Below are positions 6,905-46,681 of a stretch of 64,000 nt of DNA, piece after piece. The position numbers were made by a program, and so were the translations under genes. Below the pieces are notes generated by a model. It was given only the letters and a program-made list of their open reading frames with translations, did not search any database and had not been told where the DNA came from. The stretch's first letter is position 1. Every line of letters begins with the position of its first letter. The stretch is from an uncultured Spirochaetales bacterium (GTDB taxonomy: Bacteria > Spirochaetota > Spirochaetia > Sphaerochaetales > Sphaerochaetaceae). Location of the stretch: the NCBI GenBank assembly GCA_949285785.1, contig CASEAG010000028.1, positions 1-64,000 of the forward strand, read 5' to 3'.

Positions 6905-8056
6905 ATGGACAAGAAGAAGTTCCTGAGCATCCTCGCACTCGGCTCGATCCTCGTGATCCTCTACACGTTCCTATCGCATGTGGACATCGCAGTCTCGTCG
7001 ATCGGCGGCTTCCTCGCATCGACGTTCTCGACGCTCTTCTTCGGCATAGTCCTTGCCTTCATACTCGACATACCCGTATCGTTCTTCGAGAACAGGCTGA
7101 GAAGAACAGGAAAGCGTCTGCTTGTGCGATCCGCCAGACCGCTCAGCATACTCGTCTCGCTGGTGATCTTCTTTCTTCTGGTCGCCGTCGTCCTTGGTTT
7201 CATAATCCCCTCCACCATCGACGCCATCTCCATGATATCGCAGTCCATCGTCCTGCTTTCCGACAGGCTTCAGGGAGACTTCACCAACGAGGAGCCGGGA
7301 TTCGATGCAGCTCTTCACAGCCTCCTCAACTGGCTGGACATGAGCCTCGATGAGCTAGGAGAGCGGATCCGCGACTTCGCAAGGGACAATTCGCCTCGCT
7401 TCATCACATCGACGTTCAACACGATACTCGGCACGATCTCCAGCTTCGTCACCTTCTTCGTCGCCCTGGTGTTCGCCATATACTTCGTCTCGTCCAAGGG
7501 TATGCTTTCGCGTCATGCGCTGTATGTCCTGGAGCTGATTGACAGACCGAGTATCTCCGCATATGCCTGCCATCTTGCGCAGATCAGCTACAGGGCGTTC
7601 CGGCACTTCGTCATAGCCCAGGCGCTCGAGGCCGTCATAATCGGTGCACTGTGCACGCTGGGGATGTTCCTGCTTCGTCTGCCGAATGCGGCGATGATCG
7701 GTGTCCTCACCGGTGTCACGGCCCTTGTTCCCGTATACGGCGCCTTCATCGGTGCGATATTCGGTGCGATCGTCATCGCGGTCTCCAGCCCACTCCAGGC
7801 CATCGCGTTCGCCGTATTCATAATCATACTCCAGCAGCTCGAGGGAAATCTCATCTATCCAAGGGTCGTTGGAGGCTCCCTCGGTCTGCCATCTGTCTAC
7901 ACCTTCGCTCTCGTCACTGTGTGCGGCGCGGCCTTCGGTCTTGTCGGAATGCTGTTCGCCGTCCCCGTTGGTTCGATCTGCTACACGCTCCTGAAGGAGA
8001 GACGTGTGCACATGATGGAGGAGAAGACCAGGGCATGGAACGATAGCGGAGATTGA
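6905..8056 (+). CDS. AI-2E family transporter (membrane permease)
   Basis: A 383-residue polytopic inner-membrane protein of the AI-2E/UPF0118 family, whose members export small molecules or exchange Na+/H+; the substrate here is unknown. Two hydrophobic segments open the protein (FLSILALGSILVILYTFL), a soluble region with helices follows (about 95-165), and the C-terminal half has the conserved membrane block with VTALVPVYGAFIGAIFGAIV and QQLEGNLIYPRVVGGSLGLP, the family signature. There is no ribosome site; the ATG follows the -10 box by 6 bases. The gene stands alone, divergent from yhhQ. Confidence 0.85.
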   Translation: MDKKKFLSILALGSILVILYTFLSHVDIAVSSIGGFLASTFSTLFFGIVLAFILDIPVSFFENRLRRTGKRLLVRSARPLSILVSLVIFFLLVAVVLGFIIPSTIDAISMISQSIVLLSDRLQGDFTNEEPGFDAALHSLLNWLDMSLDELGERIRDFARDNSPRFITSTFNTILGTISSFVTFFVALVFAIYFVSSKGMLSRHALYVLELIDRPSISAYACHLAQISYRAFRHFVIAQALEAVIIGALCTLGMFLLRLPNAAMIGVLTGVTALVPVYGAFIGAIFGAIVIAVSSPLQAIAFAVFIIILQQLEGNLIYPRVVGGSLGLPSVYTFALVTVCGAAFGLVGMLFAVPVGSICYTLLKERRVHMMEEKTRAWNDSGD

Positions 8057-8058
8057 GT

Positions 8059-8087
8059 TTGCCAAATGCGCCGAAAGGTGATATATT
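8059..8087 (+). promoter_or_regulatory. Promoter of greA
   Basis: TTGCCA (8059-8064), 17-base spacer, TATATT (8082-8087). The first base pairs follow the AI-2E stop codon directly. A start near 8094 gives a leader of about 87 bases that includes the terminator hairpin below. Confidence 0.65.
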
Positions 8088-8109
8088 GGAATCACATCCG
8101 AACTACGTC

Positions 8110-8141
8110 ACCGAGCAGGTCTTCCTGCCCGGTCATTTTTT
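8110..8141 (+). terminator. Intrinsic terminator in the greA leader
   Basis: Stem ACCGAGCAGG (8110-8119) with CCTGCCCGGT (8124-8133), one A-C mismatch, loop TCTT, then six T (8136-8141). It lies between the greA promoter and the greA ribosome site, so it may attenuate greA as well as end the upstream message. Confidence 0.7.
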
Positions 8142-8180
8142 CGTAAGCGGATAGCGACAGATTCGGAGGTTCCACGACAG

Positions 8181-10874
8181 ATGAAGAACAACGCGATATC
8201 CAGGATTCTCAAGGAGGACAGGGAATACGGCAAGAACGAGCTTGCCCAGATGAAGCTGGACTCGTTCCAGGAGATAGACAAGGCGATGAAGAAGCTGGAC
8301 TATGACGATGCCAGCGAACTGATGGAGACGGCCCAGCAGATCATAGCCGTCCGCGAGGACAGCGTTTTCGCACGCTATGTCCTCGGTTCGATCGCCTTCG
8401 TCAGAAGACCGCATGAGGACAACATCTTCATGCAGAACCTGCTGATCACGTTCTATGACAACCACAACTGGACTCTGGTGGAGTTCCTTTGCAACATGAT
8501 CCTCGGCTACAACGAGAACAGGTACGCCCTGCGCATACTTGCAGACTGTCTGGTCGAGACCGGTCGCGAGGATGAGCAGTGGCCCGTCCTCGAGCGTCTC
8601 GTCAAGGTCGATTTCGACGAGAGGCGGATTCCCCGCCAGCTCGGCGACCACTTCCTCGAGACCGGAGAAAAGGACAAGGCCATCCTCTACTACAGACGTG
8701 CCATGACCCGCTGCATCAGTGCAAAGGACGTCGAGTCCATCCGCGCCCTTTGGAGCGTGCTCCTCGATGTCCAGAAGGAGGACTACGGCTATTTCCTCGG
8801 AGTGGCTGAGAAGGTCTCGACTTCCGTAGACAAGGGGCTTTCCCTCACCCTTCTCACCGACCTGTATCCCCATTACGCAGGCGACATGACAAGAGCGGTC
8901 CTCATTCTCAAGAAGGCCCTCGAGATCGACCCGTCCAGCAGAGAGGCCCGTGACGAGCTGATCAAGGTCTACAGGAAGAAGTATGAGAAGAGCGCACGCC
9001 TCGACGAATGCATCCGCAAGAGCGGTCTGGACAATCACAACGAGGATGTACACAAGGCCATAGGATTCTTCGAGACCGATATCGGATTCGATGTAGGCTG
9101 CTTCGTCTACCAGAGGAGCACCGACAGGCTCGGTCTCATCCAGTCCATGGACGACAGGCAGGTCGTCGTTGCATTCAACAAGTCCAGCAAGGTGACCATG
9201 ACACCCGACATGGCGTTCAAGGCCCTGACACCGCTTCCCAAGAACAACATCCGCGTCCTCAAGACGGCGGTCCCCGCAAAGCTTGCCGAAAGGATCAGGA
9301 AGGATCCGCGCTGGGCGCTCGTGACGATCATGGAGAGCCATAACAACCGTTCCTCGTTCAAGGAGATGAAGGAGGAGCTCGTGCCGTCCGTCCTGAATGC
9401 CAGGGAATGGGAGTCGTTCAAGAGCGAGGCGAGGAAGATCCTCCAGGAGGATCCCTACTTCTCCGCCGTTCCTGGAGAGAACGATGCATATACACTGCGC
9501 TCCACTCCGATAACCCAGGAGGAGAAGCAGCTTCTCGTGTTCAACGCGGAGAAGGACTTCTACGCCAAGGTCAAGATCCTCAAGGACTTCATCGCCAAGG
9601 ACCTCGATGTCGAGAGCGAGGCCTTCAGCGACATGATAGTCTTCTTCGACGGACAGCTTGCGCACTATACGAGCGAAGTCGATGACAAGGTCCTGTCGTC
9701 ATATCTGCTGCTCGACCAGCTCAGGACCCAGAACCACATCGCCACGGCACAGATGAGTGTGAGCGTCGATTTCGCCGATCTGTACAAGCTGATCGACGAC
9801 AGGATCAGGATCTTCGACCAGATCGGCAACGCCGACCTCAAGAGGACATATCTTGAGCATGTCATGGAGTGCGACAGGAGCTGGCCCGAGATATACAGGA
9901 GATGCTTCCCCTACTACACCTACTCCTGGATTCCCAACGCACTCAAGACGAATGGAAAGATGAACATCTATCTCGAGATTCTCAGCGACTGCGTGCATTC
10001 CTACAAGGAGAACGTCGACGTGTTCCTGTGGAACTACAGGAACGCCACCCAGGCCGAGTGGGAGAAGGCGGGAATCACAAGAGAGGATCTTCTTCTGACC
10101 CTGCTTCTCGTGCTCGACTACACTGCAAGCTCCATCGAGCTGAGGAAGGACGTCAGCGAGAACAGGAAGCGCAACGACCTCGTCGTGACGTATCTGTTCA
10201 AGGAGAAGCTGATCTTCTCCGCCATCGACAAGGGGGACAGGGATCTTGCATCCAAGATCTACTCCATCATCGCCAACGACAGGAACATCGACAAGGGCTA
10301 TTTGATCGAGGTCAAGCACTTCATCGGGGAGAAGTATCCGGACTTCGTCTTCTTCGACGACCAGAGCATCTCCGTCAACGAGGACGAGCTCATTCCCATG
10401 GGCTTCCTGTGCACCAGGAAGGCGTTTGAGGAGAAGATACGCGAGAAGGACCATATCGAGCATGTCGAGCTCCAGGAGGTCGCCAGCGAGATCGCCGACG
10501 CCCGTGCCCTCGGCGACCTGAGGGAGAACGCCGAGTACCAGTATGGCAAGGACAAGCAGAAGAATCTCAATGCCCGTCTCAGGACGCTCACCGACGAGAT
10601 CGAGAAGGCCCAGGTCATCACCCCCGAAATGGTGAACGACGGCAAGATCAGCTTTGGAACGGAGGTCACTCTCCATGACAACCTCCAGAACAAGGAGGTC
10701 ACATATACCATCCTCGGACAATGGGAGAGCGATCCTGATCACGGTATCCTGAACTTCAAGACACCGCTTGGAATGAAGCTTCTCAACAAGACCGTTGGTG
10801 ATGAGCTCGACTTCTCCATCAACGGTACACAGTACAGCTACAAGGTGGTCTCCATCAGGACCGCCTCCTTCTGA
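8181..10874 (+). CDS. greA: Transcription elongation factor GreA with long N-terminal extension
   Basis: GreA rescues backtracked RNA polymerase by stimulating transcript cleavage. The true GreA module is the last 160 residues or so of 897: coiled coil with ARALGDLRENAEYQYGKDKQ, where the acidic tip residues D and E are present, then the C-terminal FKBP-like domain (GTEVTL through SYKVVSI). The first 730 residues are mostly helical with tetratricopeptide-like repeats (for example KKALEIDPSSREARDELIKV) and match no other family I recognise. This enlarged form is known in Borrelia and Treponema. GGAGG lies 11 bases before the ATG. The last 20 bases overlap the convergent murJ end. Confidence 0.93.
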   Translation: MKNNAISRILKEDREYGKNELAQMKLDSFQEIDKAMKKLDYDDASELMETAQQIIAVREDSVFARYVLGSIAFVRRPHEDNIFMQNLLITFYDNHNWTLVEFLCNMILGYNENRYALRILADCLVETGREDEQWPVLERLVKVDFDERRIPRQLGDHFLETGEKDKAILYYRRAMTRCISAKDVESIRALWSVLLDVQKEDYGYFLGVAEKVSTSVDKGLSLTLLTDLYPHYAGDMTRAVLILKKALEIDPSSREARDELIKVYRKKYEKSARLDECIRKSGLDNHNEDVHKAIGFFETDIGFDVGCFVYQRSTDRLGLIQSMDDRQVVVAFNKSSKVTMTPDMAFKALTPLPKNNIRVLKTAVPAKLAERIRKDPRWALVTIMESHNNRSSFKEMKEELVPSVLNAREWESFKSEARKILQEDPYFSAVPGENDAYTLRSTPITQEEKQLLVFNAEKDFYAKVKILKDFIAKDLDVESEAFSDMIVFFDGQLAHYTSEVDDKVLSSYLLLDQLRTQNHIATAQMSVSVDFADLYKLIDDRIRIFDQIGNADLKRTYLEHVMECDRSWPEIYRRCFPYYTYSWIPNALKTNGKMNIYLEILSDCVHSYKENVDVFLWNYRNATQAEWEKAGITREDLLLTLLLVLDYTASSIELRKDVSENRKRNDLVVTYLFKEKLIFSAIDKGDRDLASKIYSIIANDRNIDKGYLIEVKHFIGEKYPDFVFFDDQSISVNEDELIPMGFLCTRKAFEEKIREKDHIEHVELQEVASEIADARALGDLRENAEYQYGKDKQKNLNARLRTLTDEIEKAQVITPEMVNDGKISFGTEVTLHDNLQNKEVTYTILGQWESDPDHGILNFKTPLGMKLLNKTVGDELDFSINGTQYSYKVVSIRTASF

Positions 10875-20490: not shown

Positions 20491-20834
20491 TTTCCAAGCG
20501 CCTCATCGATGAGATTGTTTATCCTCTCGCCTTCGATGTAGCTGGTGTCGGGAACGAACTTCAGAACAGGCGTATTGCGCGTCTTGAGAATCGCTCCAAG
20601 CCGGTTCTGGATGAAACCCGCCGCACTGTTGAGCGCCTTCACGCTTCGATCCAGATCCTTCTCCATGACGGTCGAGACATAGACTGTGGCATATGCATTG
20701 TCGCTCGAGAGCTTGACATCGGTGATCGATGTGAAGCGCGACAGGTGCGGGTTCTTTATCACACCTGTCACGATCATCGTCGAGATCGCCTCCATCACCC
20801 TGCTCTCGAGTCTGGATCCCGAATACGTGCTCAT
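20487..20834 (-). CDS. rbfA: Ribosome-binding factor A
   Basis: Late 30S assembly factor that acts on the 16S 5' helix. The 115 residues form a single KH-like domain: ISTMIVTGVIKNPHLSRFTS, LSSDNAYATVYVSTVM and the C-terminal LKFVPDTSYIEGERINNLID are all typical. The start overlaps the infB stop by 4 bases. Confidence 0.95.
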   Translation of the reverse strand: MSTYSGSRLESRVMEAISTMIVTGVIKNPHLSRFTSITDVKLSSDNAYATVYVSTVMEKDLDRSVKALNSAAGFIQNRLGAILKTRNTPVLKFVPDTSYIEGERINNLIDEALGK

Positions 20835-23413
20835 ACTTCCACTTCCAGCTTTCTTGCGACTTCCTGCATGATGACGAACTCGAGGATGTCACCCTTCTGG
20901 AGATCCTGGAAGTCCTCAAGCCCGATACCGCATTCGTATCCCGCACTGACCTCCTTCGCATCGTCCTTGAAGCGCTTGAGCGAGGCGATGTGGATGTTCT
21001 CCTTGTTGATCTGGATTGAATCCCTGATCACGCGCACGAAGCAGTTTCTCGTGACCTTGCCCTCGAGAATGTAGCATCCGGCGACGAGGCCGACCTTGGG
21101 AACGCGGAAGACCTCCCTGACCTCTGCCTTTCCGGAGTCGAGCTCGCGGATCTCGGGAGACAGCATGCCCTCCATGGCCGCCTTGATGTCGTCGACCACG
21201 TCGTAGATGATGTTGTACTTCCTGATCTCGACCTTCTCCTGCTCGGCAAGAGCCTGTGCACGGGGCGTAGGACGGACGTTGAAGCCGATGACAAGCGCAT
21301 TCGATGCGGCGGCGAGCGTGATGTCGCTCTCGATGATCGCACCTGCGGATGCACGGATGACGTTCAGTCTGATCTCGCTCGTGCTCAGCTTGGTAAGCGT
21401 ACCTTGGAGAGCCTCGACGGAACCCTGGACATCACCCTTTATGATGACGTTGAAGTCCTTGATCTCACCCTCGCGGATCTTGTCATAGAGGTTCTCGAGC
21501 GTGACCTTGTTGGCACTGGTCGTGTTGCCCAGGCGTTCGAGCTCCTGCCTCTTGGCGCCGACCATCCTGGCCTGCTTCTCGTCTTCGGTGACCTGGAACG
21601 GATCTCCGGCCGAAGGGATGTTCGACAGACCGATGATCTCCACCGGAGTGGAAGGTCCTGCACTCTGGATCTTCTTGCCCTTGTCGTCGAACATGGCCCT
21701 GACTCTTCCAGGGTAGATTCCCGCGACATAGTAGTCGCCCTGGTGCAGAGTACCCTTCTGGACGATGACGGTCGCGACGGTACCCCTGCCCTGGTCGATT
21801 CTGGACTCGAGGACCTTTCCAACCGCGCGGCAGTTGGGATTCGCCTTCAGCTCGAGCATCTCGGCCTGAAGGAGGATCGTGTCAAGAAGATCGTCGATAC
21901 CCTCCTTCTTCAGTGCGGATATCCTGCAGTAGAGAGTCTGTCCACCCCATTCCTCAGGTACGAGACCGATGTCGGAAAGCTGCTGCATGACACGGTCGGG
22001 ATTCGCATCTGCAAGGTCGCACTTGTTGATTGCGACGATGATGGGAACCCCTGCGGCCTTTGCATGGTCGATCGCCTCCCTAGTCTGTGGCATGACTCCG
22101 TCGTTCGCGGCCACGACAAGCACGACGATGTCCGTCACCTGGGCGCCACGTGCCCTCATCATGGAGAATGCGGCATGGCCCGGGGTGTCGAGGAACACGA
22201 CATCGCCACGGCCCGGCACATTGACCTTGTAGGCACCGATATGCTGTGTGATTCCACCGAACTCGCCACCTGCGACATCAGAAGAGCGTATCGCATCGAG
22301 AAGCTTCGTCTTTCCATGGTCGACATGGCCCATTATGGTCACGATAGGAGCGCGAGGCACCATGTCTTCAGGATTGTCGGCCTCGCTCTCGATGACGGTC
22401 TCGTCATAAAGCGAGACGAGGTGAACCTCGCAGCCGAACTCGTTGGCGATGATCTCGGCGGTCTCATGGTCGATCTGCTGGTTGATGGTCACCATCATGC
22501 CCATCTTGAAGAGCTTGGAGATGATGTCGCTCGCCTTGAGATTCATCTTCCTTGCAAGGTCGCTGACCGTGATGTTCTCCATGATGTCGATGGTCTTCGG
22601 GACCGCGGCAAGCTTGCTTTCCTCACGCTTCTTCTGCTGGTACTGGAAGTCGACTTCCTGATCGCGTCTGCTTCTGTAGTCGCCGCTGTCCTTCCTCTTT
22701 CCAGTGGTCTTGCGGGCACCTCCCTTCTGATTCAGATCAAGAGATCCTGGCGCCTGTCCACCAGCACCCATCGGTCTCGCACCGGGACGGGAACCGATAC
22801 CGGGCCTGCCCGGGGCACCACCCTGGGCGCCTCTGTATCCTCCTTCCCTGTTGAAGGGGCGGTTCTGGCCATCTGGGCGGCGATAACCTCCACCACCGGC
22901 ACCATATCTGCCCTGGCCACCTCTTGCGTTGGTCGGACGTCCTCCGACGATGCCGACGACGCGCGGACGGTTGCTCGTCGGTGTACCAGAGACCATCTGT
23001 CCCGGAACCGGCGGAAGGTTCGCGTTCTTTATGACGACGGGGCCGTGAGTGACCATGCTCTTGACCCTCTCTCCGCCTACCAGGTTCCTGTTGGCTGCAG
23101 GAACACTTGCCGCAAGACGCGACTGGGCCGGCTTCACGAGCGGGCTCGATGCAGGGCGCACGGGAGAAGAGGAAGAAGCCGAAGGGGAAGCCGTGGCCTT
23201 GGCCACCTCATCCGCCTTCTTCTCGGAAACGTTCTCGTCCTTTCTGTCTTCCTTGACCTTCGCCTTGACGGTCACGATCTTCTTTTTGATCACGACTACC
23301 TTCTTCTCAGGCGACGAGGCGGCAGGTGCCGGTGCACTCTGGCTCGCAGCGGGAGCAGAAGCCGTGCTCTGGGACTTCTTTATGACTCTGATCTTTGTCT
23401 TCTCTTCGCTCAT
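20831..23413 (-). CDS. infB: Translation initiation factor IF-2
   Basis: GTPase that brings initiator tRNA to the 30S subunit. The 860 residues comprise a long disordered N-terminal part (1-245), then the IF2 N domain ([20 protein letters not shown]), the G domain with [28 protein letters not shown] and NKCD, and domains II-IV. The N-terminal part changes from Lys/Ala/Pro-rich to Gly/Arg-rich (about residues 155-225, for example [20 protein letters not shown]). The G1 motif has GKTK where GKTS is usual. It follows nusA by 12 bases. Confidence 0.98.
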
Positions 23414-23425
23414 TTGCTTTCCTTG

Positions 23426-24910
23426 TCAGTCCTCGAATTCGAATTCCGCTCCACAGTTCGGGCAGGTGGTGGTTCCTATCTTCACCGTCGCGCCGCAGTT
23501 GGGGCAGATGAACTCCTCCTCGGTCTCCTCCTCGACGTAGATACAGTCGTTGATGGAGGCCTTCTCCTCATCGCTCAGGCCGACCTGCTCAAGCTCCTCG
23601 GGAGTGAGATTGAAGTACTCCTCCGCGGTGTAGACATCATGGAAGTTGAGCTTCTTGACGAGATCGGCGGAGATGTTGAGATCGCTGAGAAGCGTCTCGC
23701 CCTCGCCGATTCCAAGCTCCTCGGCGGACAGGGATCTGTCCGCGGCATCCTCGATGACGGTCTCGGGCTGAGCGAAGATCGCCTCGGCCCTCTCCCTCGT
23801 CTCCTGGGTCAGATCGAGTTCGTCGAACTGCTCCTGGGTCATGACCTCGATCATCCAGTCGCACAGGCTGTTGGCGAGGTTGACATTGCTTCCCTTGGGG
23901 CCGATTGCAAGTCCGACGTCCTTCTGGTTGACGATCGCGATCGCCCTTCTGGTCGACATGTCAACCAGATAGACCTTCTCGACATGAGCCGGCGTGAGGG
24001 CCGATGCGATGAAGTTGATCGGGTTCTCATCATAAGGGATGACATCGATCTTCTCGCCTTCGATCTCCGTGATGACGCTCTGGATTCTGTTGCCCTTCAG
24101 TCCGACCGTGGCTCCAACAGGATCGATGTCACGGCTGTTGGCCCTGACGGCGACCTTGGTCCTGATTCCGGCCTGGCGGACGCACTTGACGATCTCGACC
24201 TCACGGTCGTAGATCTCCGGGACCTGGATGGCCAGAAGCTTCTCGACGAGCTTCGGACTTGTCCTTGAGAGGATTATCCTGACATCCTTCTTCTGCTTGC
24301 GGCCCTTGACGTTGACCTGGGGATCGCGGGCATTGTCGGCGTTCTCGACCTTCTCAAGATAGCACTTTACCTCGGCACCCGGCTCATAGACCTCTCTGGG
24401 CGACTGGTTCTTGCGGGGAAGAAGGCCTTCCACACCGCCACCGACGTTGAGTCTGAAGTCGCCGTTGGGAAGTTCGCTGTTCACGATGCACAGGATGATC
24501 TCCCCTTCCTTGGCCTTGAACTCCTTGTATGTCCTGTTGTTCTGGACCTCCTTGAAGCTCTGCTGTGCACGCTGCTTGGCGGACTGCACGGAGCCGCGGT
24601 CGAAAGTCGACAGGTCGAGCGGGATGAGGACCTCGTCTCCGAGCTCAACGTCCTCGGTAAGCTCCTGGGCCTCGTCGAGCGGGATCTCCGTCACCTCGTT
24701 GTAGTAGTGGTCCTCGTCGACGACGGTCTTTCTGGCACAAACGGTCAGCTCGTCATCTTCAGAGAAGCTGATCTCGACGTTCTGGTCAGTGCCGAACTTC
24801 CTCTTGTATGCGGCCTTGACGAACTCCCTGATGGTCTCGAGGACCATGTCATGGGTATAGTTCTTCTCTTCAATCATCAGCCTGATGGCTTCCTTGAGAT
24901 CTGTTGACAT
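23426..24910 (-). CDS. nusA: Transcription factor NusA with C-terminal zinc ribbon
   Basis: NusA binds RNA polymerase, pausing and anti-terminating transcripts. The 494 residues contain the N-terminal domain, an S1 domain (about 135-200), and two KH domains (VGATVGLKGNRIQSVITEIE and DVGLAIGPKGSNVNLANSLC). After about 400 comes an acidic helical region (DLNISADLVKKLNFHDVYTA, EEYFNLTPEELEQVGLSDEE), then a four-cysteine zinc ribbon: Cys 469, 472, 483 and 486 in CPNCGATVKIGTTTCPNCGA. That ribbon is not part of the standard family. The gene lies between rimP, 1 base away, and infB. Confidence 0.96.
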   Translation of the reverse strand: MSTDLKEAIRLMIEEKNYTHDMVLETIREFVKAAYKRKFGTDQNVEISFSEDDELTVCARKTVVDEDHYYNEVTEIPLDEAQELTEDVELGDEVLIPLDLSTFDRGSVQSAKQRAQQSFKEVQNNRTYKEFKAKEGEIILCIVNSELPNGDFRLNVGGGVEGLLPRKNQSPREVYEPGAEVKCYLEKVENADNARDPQVNVKGRKQKKDVRIILSRTSPKLVEKLLAIQVPEIYDREVEIVKCVRQAGIRTKVAVRANSRDIDPVGATVGLKGNRIQSVITEIEGEKIDVIPYDENPINFIASALTPAHVEKVYLVDMSTRRAIAIVNQKDVGLAIGPKGSNVNLANSLCDWMIEVMTQEQFDELDLTQETRERAEAIFAQPETVIEDAADRSLSAEELGIGEGETLLSDLNISADLVKKLNFHDVYTAEEYFNLTPEELEQVGLSDEEKASINDCIYVEEETEEEFICPNCGATVKIGTTTCPNCGAEFEFED

Positions 24911-24911
24911 C

Positions 24912-25403
24912 TTACTTCTTCTCCTCCCAACGGTATGTCAGTCTGGCCTTCTGCACCTCATCACGGGACAGGACCAGTTCGTCCATCTTCTCCTTGCTGT
25001 CGACGATAAGCACATCCTTCAGCGTGACAATCTCATCGTCGCACGAGGCTATCACGGCCTCGATGTTCGATGAAAAGCGGTTCGAATAGAGTTTCACCAG
25101 CCTGCCGGTGAAGACGCTGAACTCGTACCAGTCCCTGAATGCCCTCTGCATTCCCGGCGACGAGACCTCGAGCTCGAGGTCCCTGGTGTTCCAAAGCACG
25201 CTGTAGCGTGGATAGACCACATTGTAGACAGCGGCCAGGTCGTCAGTGCCGACCTCATGCTCATCGCAGTAGACGGTCAGATGGAGCTGTATTCCACCCG
25301 GCCTGTCGTTCCTGTACACGTCGACGACCCTGAAGCCCATCGGGCGAATCAGGGCATCCATCTGTCCAAATAGCGGATTCCTCTCTATTTCCCTATCAAG
25401 CAT
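24912..25403 (-). CDS. rimP: Ribosome maturation factor RimP
   Basis: Assists 30S maturation. The 163-residue product has the RimP arrangement: N-terminal domain with FRVVDVYRNDRPGGIQLHLT, then LEVSSPGMQRAFRDWYEFSV, the family hallmark [LY]xLEVSSPG, and a C-terminal SH3-like domain. It heads the rimP-nusA-infB operon. No good ribosome site precedes the ATG; a terminator hairpin ends only 11 bases upstream. Confidence 0.94.
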   Translation of the reverse strand: MLDREIERNPLFGQMDALIRPMGFRVVDVYRNDRPGGIQLHLTVYCDEHEVGTDDLAAVYNVVYPRYSVLWNTRDLELEVSSPGMQRAFRDWYEFSVFTGRLVKLYSNRFSSNIEAVIASCDDEIVTLKDVLIVDSKEKMDELVLSRDEVQKARLTYRWEEKK

Positions 25404-25414
25404 TCCGTACCCAC

Positions 25415-25447
25415 AAAAAAAAGGAACTCCTGAGCGGGTTCCTTTTT
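25415..25447 (-). terminator. Intrinsic terminator just upstream of rimP
   Basis: On the minus strand AAAAAGGAAC pairs with GTTCCTTTTT (10-base stem, 10-base loop) and runs into eight T at 25422-25415. It can end the mutS-MATE message, but it also lies downstream of the promoter at 25501-25472 and so could attenuate the rimP operon. Confidence 0.8.
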
Positions 25448-25471
25448 CATAAGAAAAATTGAACTATCCTG

Positions 25472-25501
25472 AGAATAGAACTTTGTCCCTCACGTTGTCA
25501 A
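25472..25501 (-). promoter_or_regulatory. Promoter of the rimP-nusA-infB operon
   Basis: Consensus TTGACA (25501-25496), 18-base spacer, TATTCT (25477-25472). Transcription from about 25465 must pass the terminator at 25447-25415 before reaching rimP. Confidence 0.65.
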
Positions 25502-25518
25502 TACATCCCCGGACGACT

Positions 25519-26865
25519 TTACGGTTGTGCATGTGATTCCCGTTCCAAGGCGCAGCGTCGATATCCGGCAAGACACATGACCAGGTAGATGATCCAGCCG
25601 ACGGGAACCACATACCATATGACCTGCACGCCGAATACCGGAGCCAGGGCAATGGAACCCAGCAGCCTGAAGGCGAGATTTCCGATGCTTCCGATCGTGA
25701 AGAACGTCATATGTCCAAGACCTCTGAGCACCCCTCCGGTGACGACGGCAAGACCTAGTATCCAGTAGAAGCATCCCAGGAATGACATGTAGCCTCCACC
25801 TGCCATTCTGGCCTCATCGCTTCCATCGGCCGGAATGAAGAGGTTCATGATCGCATCGTGGAAGAAGACGAGTGCGAACGCGATGAGGACGCCGAAGCCC
25901 ATGATGACAAGACAGGAGGCGGCATAGCCTCTGCCGACACGATCCCTCTTGCCGGCACCCATGTTCTGGGCTGTAAACGAACTCATGGCGTTGCCCAATG
26001 AGAAGAACGGGACTGTGACGAAGGCATCCACCCTCATCGCGGCGGAGTATCCTGCAAGCACGTTCGACCCGAAGCCGTTGACGACGCTCTGGACAAGCAT
26101 CATGCCGATCGAGATGGATGACTGCTGGACAATCGACGGGACGGATATGGCGAGCATTCTGCCAAGGGATGGGAACGAGAAGCGTCCCCTTCCCTTTCCG
26201 CAGGTCTTCTGGATCATCTTCACAAGCACGGCGGACGATATGACTGCTGAAAGGGCCTGGGCGAAGAGCGTCGCCCAGGCGGCGCCTGCGACGCCCATGC
26301 CGAGACCGGCGACGGCTGCAAGATCGAGAACTACGTTAAGCACCGACGAGAAGATGAGAAGCACAAGCGGGATGGATGACCGTCCGATCGAATTGAACAG
26401 CGCAGAGATCACGTTGTAGAGGAAAAGGAACGGCAGACCGATGAAGTAGATTCCCAGATACGTCACGGCATCGTCCATTATGTCGCCAGGTGTACGTAGT
26501 GCAACGAGGATGTGTTCACAGAACAAGAGACCGAATGCGGCCAGGACGAGCGAGAGCAGCAGGAAGAAGACTATGCATGTCGTCATGCCATCCTTGAGGT
26601 CCTTGTAGCGTCTTGCACCGAAAGCCATCCCGGTGATGACGCTGGCACCGGCCGCACCGCTTGTCGCGATGGCGATGAAGACATTCACCAGCGCACCTGA
26701 TGCCCCCACTGCAGCAAGCGCCCCTTCGCCGAGATATCTTCCGACGATGAGCGAGTCGGCAAGCGTATACAGCTGCTGGAAGAAAGAAGCGGTCATCATC
26801 GGAAGAGTGAAGATGACGATCGCCTTCAGCGGTCTGTCATGTATCAGATACTCCCTGTCATTCAT
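25519..26865 (-). CDS. MATE family efflux transporter
   Basis: A 448-residue, 12-helix multidrug/toxin extrusion protein, normally driven by Na+ or H+. The N-terminal signature SFFQQLYTLADSLIVGRYLG (about 27-46) and the repeated half (QSSISIGMMLVQSVVNGFGS) are typical of the NorM/DinF class. It overlaps the mutS stop by 8 bases, an unusual functional pairing that suggests convenience rather than shared purpose. The substrate is unknown. A second MATE gene lies at 52150-53517. Confidence 0.9.
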   Translation of the reverse strand: MNDREYLIHDRPLKAIVIFTLPMMTASFFQQLYTLADSLIVGRYLGEGALAAVGASGALVNVFIAIATSGAAGASVITGMAFGARRYKDLKDGMTTCIVFFLLLSLVLAAFGLLFCEHILVALRTPGDIMDDAVTYLGIYFIGLPFLFLYNVISALFNSIGRSSIPLVLLIFSSVLNVVLDLAAVAGLGMGVAGAAWATLFAQALSAVISSAVLVKMIQKTCGKGRGRFSFPSLGRMLAISVPSIVQQSSISIGMMLVQSVVNGFGSNVLAGYSAAMRVDAFVTVPFFSLGNAMSSFTAQNMGAGKRDRVGRGYAASCLVIMGFGVLIAFALVFFHDAIMNLFIPADGSDEARMAGGGYMSFLGCFYWILGLAVVTGGVLRGLGHMTFFTIGSIGNLAFRLLGSIALAPVFGVQVIWYVVPVGWIIYLVMCLAGYRRCALERESHAQP

Positions 26866-46302: not shown

Positions 46303-46675
46303 GGGGGTGTTCCAGTTTCGACTGCCGGCAGAGCAGGCTTGGGACTGCAGGCCAAGCGACAACTTGTAAAACTATCGAAAAAATCAACTGCCAAGAAAGA
46401 AGACGAGTACGTCTCTGACGAAGCAATCGCTCTCGCTGCGTAAGCGGTGATTCGAGCAACGGCGCCAAGGGTGCTGATCCTAACCTGAGGCTGTCCGACA
46501 CCAACAGGGTCTTGCCCATGGCCAGCCGTCGGACCATGGGGACATCCAGACGGATACCTTCCAGGTGAGCTGGCTACAATGCTCTACCGGGAAGGGATCA
46601 TCTGAATTGTGGCTAAGCTCTGTAGACGTTCCAGGATGTCCCGGTAGGACAGGAGTGCGATTCTCCTCACCTCCA
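46303..46675 (+). ncRNA. ssrA: Transfer-messenger RNA (tmRNA)
   Basis: The 5' end GGGGGTGTTCCAGTTTCGAC is a standard tmRNA start and GGGGGTG pairs with CACCTCC at 46668-46674, one G-U pair, forming the acceptor stem. A T-arm (GGAG-TGCGATT-CTCC) precedes it. The open tag is AKKEDEYVSDEAIALAA followed by TAA (46390-46443), ending in the ALAA degron seen by ClpXP. The terminal CCA is not encoded: after the discriminator A comes TCA. The interior holds the usual pseudoknot-prone repeats, which I did not fold. Confidence 0.95.
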
Positions 46676-46681
46676 TCAACG

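Follow-up and report, generated by a model that had tools for sequence, protein, structure and literature searches.

The rimP, nusA and infB genes of this uncultured Spirochaetales bacterium follow one another on the minus strand of the window, by which we mean the whole stretch of 64,000 nucleotides that was analysed, and the same strand continues downstream of infB with rbfA, truB, ribF, rpsO and pnp. Gene names were assigned by inspecting the translations, with those of rimP and nusA backed by homologues. The nearest named relatives are themselves uncultured Spirochaetales and include Candidatus Aphodenecus pullistercoris. Upstream of rimP, and also on the minus strand, is a MATE gene that ends at 25519; no other terminator lies between its end and rimP. 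Elsewhere, the window carries a tmRNA gene at 46303-46678 with the tag AKKEDEYVSDEAIALAA. The features of the rimP region, in the order of transcription, are as follows:

25472..25501, minus strand: sigma-70-type promoter TTGACA-18-TATTCT (TTGACA 25501-25496, 18-nt spacer, TATTCT 25477-25472)
25465, minus strand: predicted transcription start, the A of AGTTCAATT, placed by spacing at the seventh base past the -10
25453..25465, minus strand: arm 1, AGUUCAAUUUUUC, at the predicted 5' end of the RNA; 5' half of a putative antiterminator, as indicated by folding and covariation
25438..25448, minus strand: arm 2, GAAAAAGGAAC, common in the predicted folds to the antiterminator (with arm 1) and the terminator (with arm 3)
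25447-25415, minus strand: terminator hairpin and U tract, with arms AAAAAGGAAC (25447-25438) and GTTCCTTTTT (25427-25418), loop CCGCTCAGGA and eight T at 25422-25415
25415..25427, minus strand: arm 3 and U tract, GTTCCTTTTTTTT, the 3' half of the terminator in the terminator fold; identity of GTTCC and the T run is 100% across all 16 species compared
24912..25403, minus strand: rimP, first gene of the operon, start ATG at 25403; matches in 56 of 61 relatives
23426..24910, minus strand: nusA, the proposed autoregulator; 80-94% identity to relatives within the genus
20831..23413, minus strand: infB, named by inspection of its translation

One of the rimP matches, in L012 (G009), contains a single in-frame TGA, reflecting either an assembly error or a pseudogene.

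The preliminary description of this region had placed a consensus promoter at 25501-25472 and a terminator between it and the first gene, with no space for a further promoter beyond. Each of these points is confirmed and all the coordinates given were correct. The T run and the rimP ATG, a start conserved in relatives, are separated by 11 nt, so that no sigma-70 promoter fits between them. The 59-nt leader folds at -17.1 kcal/mol (z = -2.7), with 3 of 200 shuffled sequences doing equally well. Among 55 genes of the window whose upstream regions were searched with a single detector, rimP came third, behind greA and the 3' terminator of a neighbouring gene. An automatic terminator scan made no call at the rimP hairpin, probably on account of its loop limit of 8 nt.

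To place the leader in an evolutionary context, we compared 16 species, one genome each, of its genus, the Candidatus Aphodenecus group of the Spirochaetales. In all 16, rimP is directly preceded by the promoter, by the nonamer at the 5' end of the predicted RNA and by a GGAACC..GTTCC-T(6-8) hairpin. The -35 is likewise conserved in 16 of 16 species and the -10 region shows a mean pairwise identity of 75%, compared with mostly 25-33% in upstream, spacer and flanking stretches. The first nine nucleotides of the predicted transcript are 99% identical; the nonamer is AGTTCAATT throughout, with a single exception carrying AGTTCAGTT. The pattern AGTTCARTT-N(6-18)-GGAACC occurs exactly once per genome in all 16 genomes, always at rimP, against one occurrence across the 16 genomes for the reversed control. 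The upstream gene, in contrast, varies: it encodes MATE in two species and MutS in about half, with other open reading frames elsewhere, and in L014 the longest upstream open reading frame is on the opposite strand, yet hairpin, promoter and arm 1 are all retained. Because the leader is conserved in every species while the gene upstream changes, it can be assigned to rimP. The preliminary description had itself named lack of conservation of the hairpin in relatives as grounds for abandoning its proposal; the hairpin is conserved, and on this count the terminator between promoter and first gene stands. We also considered whether AGTTCAATT might mark a genome-wide regulon and rejected the idea: the motif occurs eight times in this genome but only the rimP copy has a promoter and hairpin.

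The arrangement extends well beyond the genus. A TTGACA-like -35 and a terminator are found in 122 of 123 leaders of the family, covering 19 of 19 genera. The exception, L128, looks like a detector error, as its sequence includes GGGGACCTCCGAAAGGTCCCC. Of 122 family leaders, 88 have the same AG as their predicted start, and the terminators begin 2-25 nt (median 19) past the predicted start. In genus g5 (L030, L129 and L131) that distance is only 2-5 nt, making the hairpin the extreme 5' end of the RNA. Of 21 other spirochaete families, 17 also have the promoter-terminator arrangement, mostly with a GAGTCG..CGACTC-like stem. Such a stem, often shared by the rimP terminators of L141-L161 from these other families, is conserved beyond the needs of a terminator, hinting at a binding protein.

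What had been missed at this locus is a competing structure. Judged from the sequence, arm 1 can pair with the 5' arm of the terminator to give a putative antiterminator (hairpin 1:2) that excludes the terminator (hairpin 2:3). Hairpin 1:2 is predicted at about -7 kcal/mol, the truncated RNA folding at -8.5 kcal/mol, and 2:3 is the stabler of the two at about -13 to -15 kcal/mol. In folds of the growing chain, 1:2 has a probability of 0.98 at 40 nt and persists to ~42 nt; from 44 nt, where its probability is 1.00, 2:3 takes over. The AA of arm 1 (25459-25460) is unpaired in the predicted fold, yet near-invariant in the 16 species.

Evidence for the pairing of arms 1 and 2 comes from covariation. 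Since MAFFT mis-registers the inner helix of the leader, pairs were counted on a structural alignment made by hand and checked against the sequences. Within the genus the inner helix takes the forms UUUUC/GAAAA, UUAUU/AAUAA, UUAAU/AUUGA and a UUC/GAA form, and 69 of 70 cells are paired (U-A, A-U, C-G or U-G) versus 54 when the arms are permuted. Permutation of whole arms gives p = 5e-5, or p = 0.0024 when each of the seven distinct arm pairs is counted once, these and all other p-values here counting related sequences as independent and taking no account of phylogeny. Halves fold at -5.86 kcal/mol with their own partners and at -4.04 kcal/mol when exchanged, a mean cost of 1.8 kcal/mol (p = 5e-5). 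The outer 4 bp are invariant in the genus and thus provide no evidence for pairing.

The sister genus g16, whose leader takes the form AGUUUCAUUAAAGUGAUUUAAGGGAC, provides a second case. A GNRA loop is present in 46 of 46 leaders, in five kinds (GUGA, GUAA, GCAA, GAGA and GCGA), and the lengths of the 5' U run and the 3' A run of the stem are linked (2/2, n = 26; 3/3, n = 16; 2/3, n = 4; 3/2, n = 0; Fisher 5e-9). In nearly all g16 species (for example L039 and L040) the U tract is broken at its fourth position, as UUUAUU or UUUGUU; interruptions in the distal U tract have been described for B. subtilis terminators that depend on NusA and NusG (PMC8060035). Across genera, leaders starting with GUU go with ACC arms (n = 58) and those starting with GAU with GAUC arms (n = 38), with seven crosses, and swapping leaders and arms between genera weakens pairing family-wide (p about 0.015). 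Single-sequence shuffle tests are modest, with a median p of 0.02 in the genus and a combined p of 0.015 over 18 family genera. The pairing is weak or absent in g3, g18, g17, g2, g20 and g21, and g5, where a mere 2-5 nt precede the terminator, cannot accommodate it, so the antiterminator is not needed for the basic design. Most leaders of other families lack a strong antiterminator, which was seen in L143 and L141 only. In this genus (g1) and in g16, two mutually exclusive helices with one common arm are each backed by conservation or covariation, and for these two genera we firmly predict an antiterminator; we do so tentatively for g10, g12, g14 and g9, and make no claim for the family as a whole. 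At the level of the compared sequences, then, promoter, terminator and competing hairpin are established, as are their conservation and covariation.

Taken together, these results somewhat favour a model in which ~50 nt of leader form a self-contained transcription attenuator, with 1:2 delaying formation of 2:3 and NusA favouring termination. The start site, the order of folding in vivo and termination itself are parts of this model that we infer. Polymerase would start at 25465 and the first 28 nt would fold at once into 1:2. Once arm 3 emerged, the stabler 2:3 would displace arm 1 and transcription would stop in the U tract, 5' of rimP. Hairpin 1:2 would act as a delay, with read-through set by whether polymerase leaves the U tract before strand exchange ends. 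Because 1:2 would form first and 2:3 is predicted to be stabler, termination would require a time-consuming strand exchange, which would make the leader sensitive to pausing. NusA, perhaps with NusG, would lengthen pausing and aid the hairpin, promoting termination, so that abundant NusA would shut its own operon. By analogy with other bacteria NusA is likely to be the regulator, although this is the least certain part of the model. In B. subtilis, suboptimal terminators are assisted by NusA and NusG, which also stimulate pausing (PMC8060035). Feedback by NusA on the nusA operon has been described for B. subtilis (PMC12288461) as well as E. coli (PMC6511841, PMC2965389), and has been proposed for the S. 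agalactiae leader (PMC4448216). The operon, in short, probably switches itself on and off via a 50-nucleotide RNA. It is possible, and we suggest it tentatively, that this is a minimal (~50 nt), ligand-free switch whose antiterminator takes in the very 5' terminus of the transcript. By reading the length of polymerase pauses, it would make a sensor of NusA activity out of RNA folding kinetics.

Could the leader be simpler than this? Its terminator might be a plain NusA-dependent one with no RNA switch, as proposed for S. agalactiae, where termination 31 nt past the start leaves little space for an antiterminator (PMC4448216). The 1:2 pairing would then be a by-product of a short, A/U-rich leader, as the g5 leaders with their 2-5 nt before the terminator and the weak pairing in several genera might suggest. 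We regard this as unlikely, given the compensatory changes in the inner helix within the genus, the GNRA loops in 46 of 46 g16 leaders with their linked stem lengths, and a 9-nt 5' end that is 99% conserved next to variable sequence. That same 5' end might instead be conserved for its sequence and not for pairing, with arm 1 serving as a binding site for the KH domains of NusA or for another protein. The sequence AGUUCAAUU is near-invariant, including the AA left unpaired in the fold, and presumably bears a loose likeness to the UCAAU of mycobacterial NusA boxC RNA. However, arm 1 varies between genera in step with arm 2, and the idea that it is a boxC-like NusA site common to rRNA leaders failed: in three species of the genus, the rRNA leaders lack AGTTCAATT. 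A protein site in place of pairing is accordingly an improbable explanation of arm 1.

Two further readings fare worse than these. That the terminator chiefly ends transcription of the upstream gene (MATE or mutS), the rimP promoter preceding it by chance, is very unlikely: rimP keeps its hairpin, promoter and arm 1 even where it is preceded by an unrelated gene or by one on the opposite strand, as in L014, and every rimP transcript from the promoter at 25501-25472 must cross the hairpin. With MATE ending at 25519 on the same strand and no other terminator before rimP, the hairpin would also catch read-through. Attenuation by a leader peptide is scarcely credible. In this species a short frame runs over the hairpin from an ATG at 25450, but several relatives lack that ATG (L002, for instance, has TTTTGG), and the stretch separating it from the predicted start leaves no place for a ribosome site; we rejected the leader peptide because the ATG is not conserved.

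The preliminary description had also proposed that greA and rimP share one design. The greA-type gene at 8181-10874 encodes 897 amino acids with a long N-terminal part, and its leader (8050-8180) has a TTTGCC-type promoter followed by a CCGAGCAGG..CCTGCCCGG-T terminator, both conserved in species of the genus with a readable leader (L179 was not aligned at its start codon). In the readable leaders of the genus we saw no conserved arm complementary to the greA terminator, and the greA leader matched no Rfam family. The common design is thus that of a promoter plus a leader terminator and does not extend to a two-state switch.

NusA is a widely conserved elongation factor, control of whose level has been studied in only a few model bacteria, and a literature search on Sphaerochaeta nusA and terminators found nothing. 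With a short leader and a covarying antiterminator, self-sensing by NusA becomes a small in vitro problem with mutable parts. The comparison with E. coli drawn in the preliminary description is apt, the metY-rimP-nusA-infB operon having terminators with U tracts 5' of rimP and being regulated by its own NusA (PMC6511841, PMC4448216, PMC2965389). In E. coli, however, there are two tandem terminators, with a tRNA gene and several promoters upstream (PMC6511841). The B. subtilis nusA operon also has a leader terminator, with NusA-stimulated intrinsic termination and negative NusA feedback (PMC12288461), but deep sequencing puts its leader at ~180 nt (cited in PMC2965389), whereas that described here is ~50 nt with the antiterminator at its predicted 5' end. 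The rimP-nusA-infB 5' UTR of S. agalactiae is likewise very short, and in it a short terminated RNA and the long transcript have a common start; there, unlike here, termination comes 31 nt past the start and no antiterminator has been described (PMC4448216).

By position, the terminator is a case of the known rimP-leader class, defined by a terminator in the rimP-nusA-infB 5' UTR, 4-130 nt from the start codon, with NusA as the proposed regulator (Naville & Gautheret 2010, PMC2965389). It has the G-rich 5' arm and C-rich 3' arm of that class and qualifies as an intrinsic terminator. The class core is GGGc..gCCC (PMC2965389); many genera of the family have GGGAUCG..CGGUCCC or GGGACC..GGUCCC, and this genus GGAACC..GGUUCC. 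The corresponding Rfam family, RF01770 (rimP), shares operon and position, but its model of 102 positions has no match at this leader and gave nothing above the gathering cut-off in 61 genomes; an Rfam scan of the window and leader found no known RNA family at rimP. The leader thus works, as predicted, like a two-state attenuator and belongs to the rimP-leader class by position while failing the Rfam model. It is set apart by its antiterminator, located at the predicted 5' end. No antiterminator was visible in most species of the original study, nor any outside a tandem arrangement in some Gammaproteobacteria (PMC2965389), but as this is an observation and no part of the definition, the covarying antiterminator of g1 and g16 marks a variant and does not exclude them from the class. 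In at least two genera of spirochaetes, a class mostly reported without an antiterminator would have acquired or retained one.
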